Positions 4,318-58,172 of a stretch of DNA of 64,000 nt are shown one piece after another. Within the stretch, counting starts at the first letter, position 1. Each line of letters begins with the position of its first letter. The position numbers and the translations under genes are program-made. Source of the stretch: Sphingorhabdus sp. (GTDB lineage: Bacteria; Pseudomonadota; Alphaproteobacteria; Sphingomonadales; Sphingomonadaceae); the NCBI GenBank assembly GCA_028279555.1, contig JANQNO010000010.1, forward strand, positions 62,001 to 126,000, read 5' to 3'. The notes beneath the pieces were generated by a model. The model searched no databases, was not told where the DNA came from, and saw only the letters and a program-made list of their open reading frames with translations.

Positions 4318-4396
4318 GGTGATCTCCAGCGAAAGCTGGAGTCCAGTCTTATTATCGACTGTAGTTGCTGGACCCCAGCCTGCGCTGGGGATCACC
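4318..4396. repeat. Inverted pair of hairpin repeats (REPIN-like), pair 1
   Basis: Two short palindromes face each other. The left one is CTCCAGC-GAAA-GCTGGAG followed by TCCAG (4324-4346). The right one, read on the other strand, is CCCCAGC-GCAG-GCTGGGG followed by TCCAG (4368-4390). Both have GGTGAT on the outside. They sit between convergent genes (COQ4 and DUF3052), so they may also terminate transcription. They belong to the family described for 57810-58172. Confidence 0.8.
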
Positions 4397-4814: not shown

Positions 4815-4830
4815 ACCAATCCTCCCTTTG

Positions 4831-4911
4831 TGATCCCCGGACTTGATCCGGGGTCCAGTGAGATAGCACTCACCAGCAACACTCTGGACTCCTGCCTTCG
4901 CAGGAGATCAC
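4831..4911. repeat. Inverted pair of hairpin repeats, pair 2
   Basis: Left hairpin: CCCCGGA-CTTGA-TCCGGGG then TCCAG (4835-4858). Right hairpin, inverted: CTGGA then CTCCTGC-CTTC-GCAGGAG and ATCAC (4884-4911). The inner sides carry GTCCAG and the outer sides TGATC, as in the other pairs. The 25-base spacer carries no gene. Confidence 0.82.
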
Positions 4912-4940: not shown

Positions 4941-5014
4941 GTCATTCCCGCGTAGGCTGGAATCCAGTTTTCACCGACCTCTCGACTGGACTCCCGACCA
5001 AGTCGGGAGTGACG
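4941..5014. repeat. Inverted pair of hairpin repeats, pair 3
   Basis: The left member (4941-4967) is a degenerate hairpin, ATTCCCGC-GTAG-GCTGGAAT, with one mismatched stem position. The right member is CTCCCGAC-CAA-GTCGGGAG (4991-5009) followed by TGACG. Here the outer flank is GTCA rather than TGATC, so this pair is a sub-type of the family. It lies directly beyond the stop codon of purL and could shape the 3' end of its mRNA. Confidence 0.75.
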
Positions 5015-49725: not shown

Positions 49726-51079
<1,354 letters not shown>

Positions 51080-51080
<1 letters not shown>

Positions 51081-51409: not shown

Positions 51410-51518
51410 ATGTCCATCCTCGTAAATAAGAACACCAAGGCCATCATACAGGGGATGACCGGATCTACCGGAACCTTCCATACCAAGCAGGCGCTCGAAT
51501 ATGGCACGCAGATGGTCG
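51410..51518 (+). repeat. Diverged direct duplicate of the sucD 5' end
   Basis: These 109 bases match 52746-52854 at about 87% by eye (14 differences). The similarity starts exactly at the ATG in both copies and ends within GCACGCAGATGGTCG. Upstream sequences share nothing. Many differences are third-codon changes, so the copy has drifted or came from another strain's sucD. Confidence 0.88.
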
Positions 51519-52168: not shown

Positions 52169-52749
52169 TGCTCTCTGCCGCCCTTCTCCTCGCGGCCAGC
52201 CCGGTGGCGGCCGATGACTACCCCGCGAAACAGGTATTGCAGAGCTTTGCAACCGCCTGTTCGGGTATTGAGAATATGGCGGTGGCCCAGGCATCAGCCG
52301 CCGCCGCTGGCTGGGAAGGATACGAAGCTTCGCGGGATTCGATGCTTGGCCGGCTACTTGCGATGGGGCGGGCGGAGATCGCCAAGGATCCGAAAACGGA
52401 ATATATTTTGGGCGGCACATATCAAAAAACCGTGGCCGACCGTTCGCTGCATCTGGTGCTGACGCGCGTCGTTGACGAAACGGTGTCGGCCAATGGATGC
52501 AGGATATACGATTTTGCAGCTAAGCGATCTTTGACGGTGGCTGAGCTGGAAGGCTGGACGGTCCGCCCGCCCAACGCGACCGAAGCACCCGCCGCCGGCC
52601 TGATAAGACACATCTGGAATCCGGGGCTGAAACCTGGCCATGTTGAAATGAATATTTCCTTCACTGCGAAGGATAGCGAATTATCCGGCAACATTCCCGT
52701 GACAGGGTTGATGTTTTCGGCGCAATCACTGGAGATAAATGGACAATGA
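52168..52749 (+). CDS. Exported protein of unknown function between the sucD copies
   Basis: A 193-residue protein with a signal peptide ([15 protein letters not shown]) and two cysteines in the mature part ([15 protein letters not shown]). It starts at 52168, overlapping the previous stop as TGATG, with GGGAGG upstream. Its stop overlaps the sucD ATG as ATGA, so sucD translation would be coupled to it. The mature domain may be a distant relative of the preceding exported domain, judged only from similar size and cysteine placement. Confidence 0.6.
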
Positions 52750-52854
52750 GCATCCTCGTAAACAAAGATACCAAGGTCATCACCCAGGGGATGACCGGAT
52801 CTACCGGGACCTTCCATACCGAGCAGGCCATTGAATATGGCACGCAGATGGTCG
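52746..52854 (+). repeat. Second copy of the sucD 5' repeat (start of intact sucD)
   Basis: The first 109 bases of the intact sucD gene, matched by the diverged copy at 51410-51518. The two copies are 1336 bases apart start to start. Confidence 0.88.
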
Positions 52855-53630
52855 CGGGCGTCACGCCGGGAAAGGGCGGCACGACGCATCTGGGCCTGCC
52901 TCAATTCGATACCGTAAGAGAGGCAAAGGCTGCGACCGGCGCAACCGCGAGCTGCATCTATGTGCCCCCGCCTTTCGCCGCCGACGCGATCTGCGAAGCC
53001 ATTGCGGCCGAGATGGAACTTATTATCTGCATCACCGAAGGCATCCCCGTACTTGATATGGTGCGCGCCAAGGCTGCACTCACCGGCAGCAAATCGCGCC
53101 TGATCGGCCCCAACTGCCCTGGCGTTCTGACGCCGGATGAATGCAAGATCGGCATCATGCCAGGCTCGATCTTCAAGAAGGGCTCGGTCGGCGTCGTATC
53201 GCGCTCGGGCACGCTCACTTACGAAGCCGTGCATCAGACGACTGCCGTTGGCCTCGGTCAGACCACGGCTGTCGGCATTGGCGGAGACCCCGTCAACGGC
53301 ACCAACTTTATTGACGTGCTGGAGATGTTCCTCGCCGACGAGGCAACAGAGAGCATCATCATGATTGGTGAGATTGGCGGCGATGCCGAGGAGCAGGCCG
53401 CGCAATTCCTGATCGACGAGGCCAGGAAGGGCCGCAAAAAGCCGACGGCGGGTTTCATCGCCGGACGCACCGCACCGCCGGGCCGCCGCATGGGCCATGC
53501 CGGCGCGATCGTGTCGGGCGGCAAGGGCGGCGCAGATGACAAGATTGCCGCTATGGAAGAAGCGGGCATTCGCGTCGCGGCTTCTCCGTCGGAACTGGGT
53601 ACGACCCTGGTGGAGGCGCTTAAGGGGTAG
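52746..53630 (+). CDS. sucD: Succinyl-CoA synthetase alpha subunit
   Basis: The 294-residue alpha subunit of succinate-CoA ligase. The CoA-binding N-terminus ([27 protein letters not shown]) is seen, then [31 protein letters not shown] and [14 protein letters not shown] with the phosphohistidine. The beta subunit sucC, its partner, is not adjacent. It is followed by a hairpin-repeat pair and sucA. Confidence 0.97.
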
Positions 53631-53659: not shown

Positions 53660-53726
53660 GTGCTCCCCAAACTTGATTTGGGGTCCAGATGAACAACACT
53701 GGATTCCAGCTTTCGCTGGAAAGCAC
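53660..53726. repeat. Inverted pair of hairpin repeats between sucD and sucA
   Basis: The left hairpin is CCCCAAA-CTTGA-TTTGGGG then TCCAG (53665-53688), with GTGCT outside. The right, inverted, is CTGGA, TTCCAGC-TTTC-GCTGGAA and AGCAC (53699-53726). Outer GTGCT and inner GTCCAG/ATCCAG match the ends of the GIY-YIG element at 57810-58172. The ten-base spacer has no gene. Being inside the operon, the pair may affect mRNA stability or the sucD:sucA ratio. Confidence 0.85.
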
Positions 53727-57809: not shown

Positions 57810-57840
57810 CAGTGCTCCGCACTTGTTGCGGAGTCCAGGG
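57810..57840 (+). repeat. Left end of the GIY-YIG element
   Basis: Hairpin stem CTCCGCA (57815-57821) and TGCGGAG (57827-57833), then TCCAGGG. The final AGGG forms part of the ribosome-binding site of the enclosed gene. Confidence 0.9.
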
Positions 57841-57848
57841 AGTTGGGA

Positions 57849-58139
57849 GTGAAAGAAGGATATGTCTATCTGATGGCGAACAAGCGCAACGGCACGACTT
57901 ATCTGGGCGTTACCAACAATATTGGACAGCGCGCTTACCAACACCGAAATGCAATGATTGAGGGGTTTTCTAAGAAATATGGCTGCCATCTTCTCGTCTG
58001 GTATCAGCATTTTGAAGACCTGCAGGATGCAAGAGCGTGTGAGTATCGGATGAAAAAATGGAAACGATCTTGGAAACTCCGATTGATTGAAGAACATAAT
58101 CCGCAATGGAAAGATTTGTACGAAACCTTGGGCGGATGA
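57849..58139 (+). CDS. Small GIY-YIG nuclease-family protein
   Basis: A 96-residue single-domain GIY-YIG protein. The GIY/YIG strands are GYVYLMANKRNGTTYLGVTNN, followed by the Arg in IGQRAYQHR. The Glu that binds metal is probably in ARACEYRMKKWKRSWK, and NPQWKDLYETL is the usual end. All expected catalytic residues appear present. The GTG at 57849 has AGGGAG six bases upstream; an earlier frame start at 57795 lies inside sucB and is rejected. Composition is more A+T-rich than sucB and lpd. The function of these small proteins is unsettled. Confidence 0.87.
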   Translation: MKEGYVYLMANKRNGTTYLGVTNNIGQRAYQHRNAMIEGFSKKYGCHLLVWYQHFEDLQDARACEYRMKKWKRSWKLRLIEEHNPQWKDLYETLGG

Positions 58140-58141
58140 CG

Positions 58142-58172
58142 CCCTGGGCTCCGCAACAAGTGCGGAGCACTG
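58142..58172 (-). repeat. Right end of the GIY-YIG element
   Basis: Inverted partner of 57810-57840 with a single mismatch (GCCCAG in place of GTCCAG). The GGAG ribosome-binding site of lpd lies just outside it (58174-58177). Confidence 0.9.

Follow-up and report, generated by a model that had tools for sequence, protein, structure and literature searches.

The gap between sucB and lpd in a 64-kb window of a Sphingorhabdus genome of 2.75 Mb (contig JANQNO010000010.1; the window is the whole stretch of DNA analysed, and the genome is called the host genome below) holds a small GIY-YIG nuclease gene, framed by two inverted 31-bp ends that agree at 30 of 31 bases (Table 1). Read from the outside towards the gene, each end consists of GTG, a 7-bp stem, T or C, and CCAGG. 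The right arm starts 2 bases past the stop codon, and a repeat finder returned the ends as an inverted pair of 34 nt (94%). Folded as single-stranded DNA, both ends formed hairpins more stable than nearly all of 200 shuffled sequences (z -2.4, 2/200 shuffles as stable; z -3.4, 0/200). A preliminary description of this DNA had noted a GIY-YIG gene between inverted 31-bp hairpin ends, and that observation was confirmed. On a test that scores the inverted ends around a gene, the unit scored 29; among controls, 5 of 630 genes from the contigs of homologues and 2 of 378 genes of the host genome scored as high as 25. With up to three mismatches allowed, the left end had no match in the host genome outside the two ends of the present unit, which thus seems to have arrived with its ends. 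The stretch is a discrete unit of ~360 bp, made up of a small GIY-YIG gene and two inverted hairpin ends.

The encoded protein matched the GIY-YIG family PF01541 (E 2.8e-14; 53.6 bits, cut-off 22.6), and Y7, Y18, R28, E65, and N84, which we take to be residues of the GIY-YIG active site, are among the invariant columns of 45 aligned homologues. Its AlphaFold2 model had a mean pLDDT (predicted local distance difference test) of 95. By sequence, the nearest solved structures were 1zg2 (E 1.1e-6) and 1ywl (E 1.1e-4); the folds nearest to the predicted structure include that of the branched-DNA nuclease SLX1. TIGR01453 of NCBIfam was matched only below threshold, and homing matches in NCBIfam and PHROGs were weak. 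Two other assignments were rejected. As to a defence gene, PADLOC gave weak matches to other members of set A1 and none to the window protein; as to a phage gene, a phage collection gave no match at E 1e-6, and PHROGs offered only the weak homing matches.

Homologues of this gene commonly lie between inverted hairpins. All six homologues in the host genome scored 19 to 29 on the inverted-end test, which reads flanks of 250 nt; their ends represent at least four different stem types, and the sixth homologue is more distant and has another hairpin (CTTCGACAAGCTCAG). At one locus, L004, exact-word matching overlooked inverted ends that alignment recovered. Two of the host-genome units, L003 and L005, have the same length, 366 bp counted from GTC to GAC, and are 75% identical, whereas the 60 nt outside them agree at 45 and 48%, the level of shuffled sequence. 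Because the two are alike inside and lie in unrelated flanks, the unit comprises the gene and both ends.

A scan of named genomes covered the best 80 of 576 confirmed relatives; going by record titles, these represent Proteobacteria, Omnitrophota, Planctomycetes, Nitrospirae, Bacteroidetes, candidate phyla, and others, and include many metagenome bins. Four of the 80 loci were short of flanking sequence; among the 76 scored, 61 reached 14 or more, compared with 15 of 630 control genes, taken from the same contigs at a distance of 1 kb or more, and 49 reached 18 or more, compared with 7 of 630. Within the genus, 48 of 54 units scored at least 14, as did 9 of 378 host-genome genes; one of these nine is the unit L003, one overlaps the homologue L006, and two adjoin L006. 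A further 26 units (25 testable) passed in 14 cases, with weak results in two gene-rich genomes (4/11 and 2/5) and strong ones in genome G058 (4/4) and in a second clade (4/5 testable loci of L219–L224). Within 250 nt of the best 80 of 576, the density of hairpins bearing the short head and tail motifs of these ends (tags) was ~25 times that in the rest of their contigs. The closest such hairpin pointed inward in 50 cases and outward in 13 on the upstream side, and in 44 and 14 cases on the downstream side; 17 upstream and 22 downstream flanks had none.

These counts bear on the plainest alternative, that the hairpins are there by chance or are transcription terminators such as might stand beside any short gene. 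Terminators would be no surprise in the operon gaps that several units do occupy, but the control loci, the inward orientation of the hairpins, and the recurrence of similar tags across phyla refute this explanation, to which we attach virtually no probability.

The second, more distant GIY-YIG clade (L006, L139, L191, and L219–L224) lies beside CCCTGAGCTTGTCGAAGGG-type hairpins. At the genus loci L133, L134, L190, and L135, the tags are reversed (GCGAC towards the gene) or the hairpins, judged by eye, are in direct orientation; these loci may represent other tag classes or misread boundaries. On a Planktothrix agardhii plasmid, homologue L212 is located between an MmeI-type restriction gene and the DISARM gene drmA, among GTCATTCTGAGTGAAACGAAGAATCTC repeats. 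The records CP090106.1 (3.7 Mb) and NZ_CP119140.1 (2.2 Mb) are labelled as plasmids and, by their lengths, look chromosome-like.

A clear end pair was present in 110 of 133 units. The commonest end consists of GTC, an A-T pair, ~7 further pairs, a loop of 4–5, and then CCAG or CCAT; GTC is the head in 79 of 100 parsed ends and CCA the tail in most, and the GTG ends of the window represent a variant class of this plan. In 21 varied, well-paired ends chosen by hand, stem changes were compensatory, with 7 of 8 pairs varying on both sides and slid structures pairing at 19–49%. Stem sequence is thus free, whereas shape and tags are conserved, and because stems vary so freely, recognition, if any, should rest on tags and shape.

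The tags of the ends correspond to the clades of the nuclease. Across 100 units, protein identity correlated with end similarity (Mantel r 0.40, 0/2000 permutations; r 0.32 for pairs below 70% identity). On a quick tree of 132 proteins, built from few columns and with 89 rows labelled in seven tag classes, the classes changed 7 times (minimum 6) compared with a shuffled mean of 20.5 (0/200 as low); the classes were defined after the ends had been viewed, one collects the remainder, 20 of 110 units were left without a class, and near copies inflate the agreement. The GTG class (10 rows, four from one gap) falls entirely to one side of a branch whose support is 89. At least two tag classes occur in single genomes, for example G007, G012, G016, and G036, so the host alone does not explain the agreement between clade and tags. 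Host relatedness was only partly controlled, and the host-controlled comparison ran in the same direction, at 160 to 48 for whole ends (non-independent counts) and, with less clarity, at 107 to 73 for the inner tag.

Inverted pairs with outer GTC or GTG and inner CCA tags and no gene between them are scattered throughout the genome, and those in the window are included in Table 1. The preliminary description had pointed to the pair at 53660–53726, between sucD and sucA, and this pair was confirmed, with GTGCT outermost on both sides and GTCCAG and ATCCAG as inner tags. It resembles a REPIN, a doublet of repetitive extragenic palindromic (REP) sequences, and is an example of a gene-less pair with unlike stems in its halves. 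The pair folds with a z of -6.5 (0/200 shuffles). Gene-less pairs can take the form of either a junction or a single long hairpin, as any inverted pair would, and this choice of forms is given no weight here. A covariance model built from GTC ends, R1, detected 71 hairpins in the host genome. In 436 kb of this genome, 16 of 29 R1 hairpins form 8 inward pairs, compared with 2 outward neighbouring pairs and 1 pair in the same direction, and 11 of the 29 have their midpoints within long reading frames, which cover 86% of the sequence. Rfam gave no match to the window at gathering scores.

Table 1. Positions of the GIY-YIG unit and of gene-less hairpin pairs in the window
Feature	Positions	Strand	Remarks
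Left unit end	57810–57840	+	GTG head; 7-bp stem 57815–57833; TCCAG tail towards gene
GIY-YIG nuclease gene	57849–58139	+	96 codons; GTG start; TGA stop 58137–58139; PF01541
Right unit end	58142–58172	-	Inverted copy of left end
Gene-less pair in sucD-sucA gap, left half	53660–53688	+	REPIN-like; four genus genomes hold a GIY-YIG unit in the same gap
Gene-less pair in sucD-sucA gap, right half	53699–53726	-	Stem unlike left half; similar tags
Gene-less pair 4319–4395, left half	4319–4346	+	GTGAT head; TCCAG tail
Gene-less pair 4319–4395, right half	4368–4395	-	
Gene-less pair 4830–4911, left half	4830–4858	+	
Gene-less pair 4830–4911, right half	4884–4911	-	
Gene-less pair 4941–5013, left half	4941–4968	+	GTC type; model R1 E 3e-4
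Gene-less pair 4941–5013, right half	4985–5013	-	GTC type; model R1 E 4e-8

Upstream of the sucD-sucA pair, the list of open reading frames has no sucC between mdh (50118–51080) and sucD (52746–53630). A frame at 51410–52168 matches the start of sucD at 31 of its first 36 residues and is unrelated over the rest, which gives it the look of a partial duplication or replacement.

The GIY-YIG gene has a patchy distribution (29 of 45 genus genomes, 59 of 192 alphaproteobacterial genomes), and the abundance of R1 hairpins follows it. Within the genus, where up to 150 candidates per genome were scored, the median was 26 hairpins in the 29 genomes with the gene and 8 in the 16 without (p 8e-5), and the difference persisted after subtraction of two ends per gene copy (p 7e-4). 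Among the 192 alphaproteobacterial genomes, for which counts include unit ends and a count of 38 means at least 38, five or more hairpins were found in 38 of 59 genomes with the nuclease compared with 12 of 133 without (odds ratio 18, p 5e-15). Nine pairs of genomes from the same family, among those listed, differ in the gene; five of them differ in hairpins, all in the expected direction, and four are ties at zero.

The same sample addresses the possibility that a REP-associated tyrosine transposase (RAYT) drives REP-like hairpins and the GIY-YIG gene is a passenger. The layout of the units equals that of REP/RAYT units as given in passages of PMC2817692 and PMC3116915, and the RAYT family PF01797 occurs in 44 of the 192 genomes, with a weak link to the presence of at least one hairpin (odds ratio 2.1, p 0.03, compared with 16 for the nuclease). 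At five or more hairpins, however, the contrast for PF01797 was small (16/44 with, 34/148 without; odds ratio 1.9, p 0.08) and vanished in nuclease-free genomes (3/26 with, 9/107 without; p 0.70), whereas in PF01797-free genomes the nuclease retained its effect (25/41 with, 9/107 without). PF01797 had no match in the host genome or in 18 other genomes of the genus, and the heads of the hairpins are unlike GT(A/G)G. Largely refuted within the genus, a RAYT driver is very improbable.

Several results weigh against the nuclease as the driver of the repeats. First, 12 genomes of the 192 have at least five hairpins and lack the gene. Nine of these were rechecked with PF01541, and seven matched only a frame of 614–720 codons, the size of UvrC; the other three hairpin-rich genomes carry PF01797. 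Genome G145 of the same sample, in which no small GIY-YIG gene was found, has at least 38 hairpins, some of them arranged in a row at intervals of ~305 bp. Second, 12 of 59 nuclease genomes have no R1 hairpin; 47 of 59 have one or more and 38 of 59 five or more. Absence of the repeats from gene-bearing genomes was among the refuting results named in the preliminary description, whose tests of this kind mostly came out in its favour. Among these, G058 has no R1 hairpin yet proper ends at 4/4 units, so the R1 model or its limit misses some hairpins. Finally, CTTA-tagged hairpins numbered at least 15 in all 3 genus genomes with an assigned CTTA-class nuclease and also in 8 of 42 others; the expectation that they would be confined to genomes with a CTTA-class nuclease failed.

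Comparison of loci revealed gain and loss of units. In the genus, lpd was found in 44 of 45 genomes, and the sucB-lpd gap was read in 29 relatives. Empty sites, which the preliminary description had anticipated, are present in 28 of these (gaps of 17–59 nt, counted up to a point a few codons inside lpd, that of G009 by eye); the remaining genome, G005, has another neighbour there, and in none of the 29 does the gene occur at this place without repeats. The unit was gained in the lineage of the host genome between sucB and lpd. The sucD-sucA gap, occupied by a gene-less pair in the window, carries a gene-bearing unit in G008, G036, G046, and G047. At the same place in G043, locus L259 retains an internally deleted nuclease remnant between its hairpins, which might represent a step from a gene-bearing to a gene-less pair. 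Of 42 loci, 30 were read; one was unusable, and the other 23 have no tagged hairpin in this gap. In Azospirillum lipoferum, a GIY-YIG gene flanked on each side by hairpin pairs occupies the sufB-sufC gap, and the same gaps of A. ramasamyi, A. oryzae, and strain B510 contain no unit. These and other occupied gaps are unrelated to each other. No target-site duplication was seen by eye at sucB-lpd or sufB-sufC, in comparisons that had no near-identical empty site.

Within genomes of the genus, the best pair of nuclease genes was 78% identical and the median 49% (n=42), and the 11 gene copies of G161 share 27–68% identity. Judged from these sequences, it is the hairpin pairs, not the nuclease gene, that appear to multiply within genomes, and the gene behaves as a RAYT gene does, being diverse and showing no recent duplication within a genome.

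GIY-YIG domains are frequent in homing enzymes, and some of these observations would suit a different history, in which the pairs spread by other means and the GIY-YIG gene homes into existing pairs, which its product would cut, with the hairpins as homology arms. The sucD-sucA gap is gene-bearing in some genomes and gene-less in the window, the protein has weak homing matches, and L003 and L114 apparently occupy the same gap, as judged by flanking frames, yet differ in the stems of both ends, as if these came from local repeats. Contrary to homing, the end of the window unit occurs nowhere else in the host genome, the sucB-lpd gaps of the relatives read hold no pair, and tag class tracks protein clade though single genomes hold several classes. 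We consider such a history unlikely. Still less likely is a host role, in which nuclease and hairpins would act in repair or in the upkeep of DNA structure, with the nuclease clearing cruciforms at the repeats and the two being inherited horizontally together without forming a mobility system. The predicted SLX1-like fold, the conserved active-site residues, and the lack of recent gene copies within genomes would fit this role, but the patchy presence of the gene in genus and class, the empty sites, and the remnant in G043 are what a genetic rider, rather than a housekeeping gene, would leave.

We therefore favour, as the probable though far from certain explanation, a REPIN/RAYT-like system of a bacteria-wide family that is run by an unrelated, SLX1-like nuclease, one unit of which was gained at sucB-lpd. 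The bounds of the unit, its gain at a place that relatives have empty, the link with hairpins both next to the gene and across genomes, the compensatory changes in the stems, and the match between tag class and protein clade are shown; binding and nicking by the enzyme and movement in trans we infer. The pair would turn single-stranded, for example at a replication fork, and the hairpins would fold out; the SLX1-like nuclease would recognise hairpin and tags and nick at or beside the tags; and the freed or copied segment would be rejoined elsewhere by host repair. Gene-less pairs would be served in trans and come to outnumber the gene, and in this way the nuclease may spread gene-less repeats. 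More tentatively, and with rather more doubt than conviction, we suggest that these units form a class of mobile DNA that spans the bacteria and has had no name until now. In it, a stand-alone GIY-YIG nuclease would replace the transposase, recognise a hairpin with fixed tags beside it, and spread gene-less pairs, and it would be where several orphan repeats of long standing, including dRS3 of Neisseria, come from. Palindromic repeats for which no mover is known number dozens to hundreds in many bacterial genomes. If the nuclease family moves the GTC-headed, CCA-tailed ones, it becomes testable where a substantial fraction of these repeats, and perhaps dRS3, came from, and the patchy genes for a 'GIY-YIG nuclease family protein' in operon gaps would be explained. 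To our knowledge, GIY-YIG enzymes are not known as drivers of such repeats, and an enzyme type would thus be added.

Among known proteins, UPF0213/YhbQ shares small size, fold, and a stand-alone GIY-YIG form with the window protein, to which its sequence match, seen in the structures 1zg2 and 1ywl, is distant; we know of no repeat association of YhbQ. The window protein is also predicted to have an SLX1-like fold; SLX1 is eukaryotic, acts with SLX4, and is not known to have a link to repeats. With homing endonucleases, the protein appears from its sequence to share a GIY-YIG domain with conserved active-site residues, but a single conserved target site would be expected of such enzymes and the units lie in unrelated gaps. 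Autonomous transposons with miniature inverted-repeat transposable elements likewise have terminal inverted repeats bounding the unit, as seen at L003 and L005. Near L207 and L208 of Sinorhizobium and L211 on a Rhizobium plasmid, hairpins end in GGATCCAG or GGAATCCAG, and we take these hairpins to be RIME-like (Rhizobium-specific intergenic mosaic elements).

The dRS3 element, given as ATTCCC(N8)GGGAAT in passages of PMC3898611, has the form of the stem of many ends in the family, and a gonococcal homologue (L209, 49% identical) lies among dRS3-form hairpins. The hairpins nearest to L209 belong to pairs on either side of the gene rather than forming inward-facing ends, the stem of the window unit (CTCCGC...GCGGAG) and its head differ from dRS3, and the passages of PMC3898611 contain no tie between dRS3 and a GIY-YIG gene. 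A literature search that covered mostly listings and the openings of abstracts, few subscription papers, and no bioRxiv preprints found no report linking GIY-YIG genes with REP-like repeats.

The closest parallel is REP/RAYT. A gene between two inverted repeats, the layout described in passages of PMC2817692 and PMC3116915, is shared by the window unit and by most, though not all, homologues, and both systems have dispersed hairpins that often form inward doublets. In both, enzyme and repeat types agree on trees, and enzyme genes vary widely, with no recent duplicates inside a genome. The RAYT enzyme, however, is of the Y1/HUH type (PF01797) and that of the present units is GIY-YIG (PF01541); in REP repeats, a GT(A/G)G head immediately precedes the palindrome (passages of PMC2817692), whereas the hairpins described here combine a GTC or GTG head with a CCA tail. 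The REP/REPIN-RAYT-like layout with a GIY-YIG protein as its enzyme, first put forward in the preliminary description, is now well supported as a reading of the element. Membership of REP/RAYT fails on enzyme family and head, but the working likeness holds in layout, doublets, and co-evolution of enzyme and repeat.
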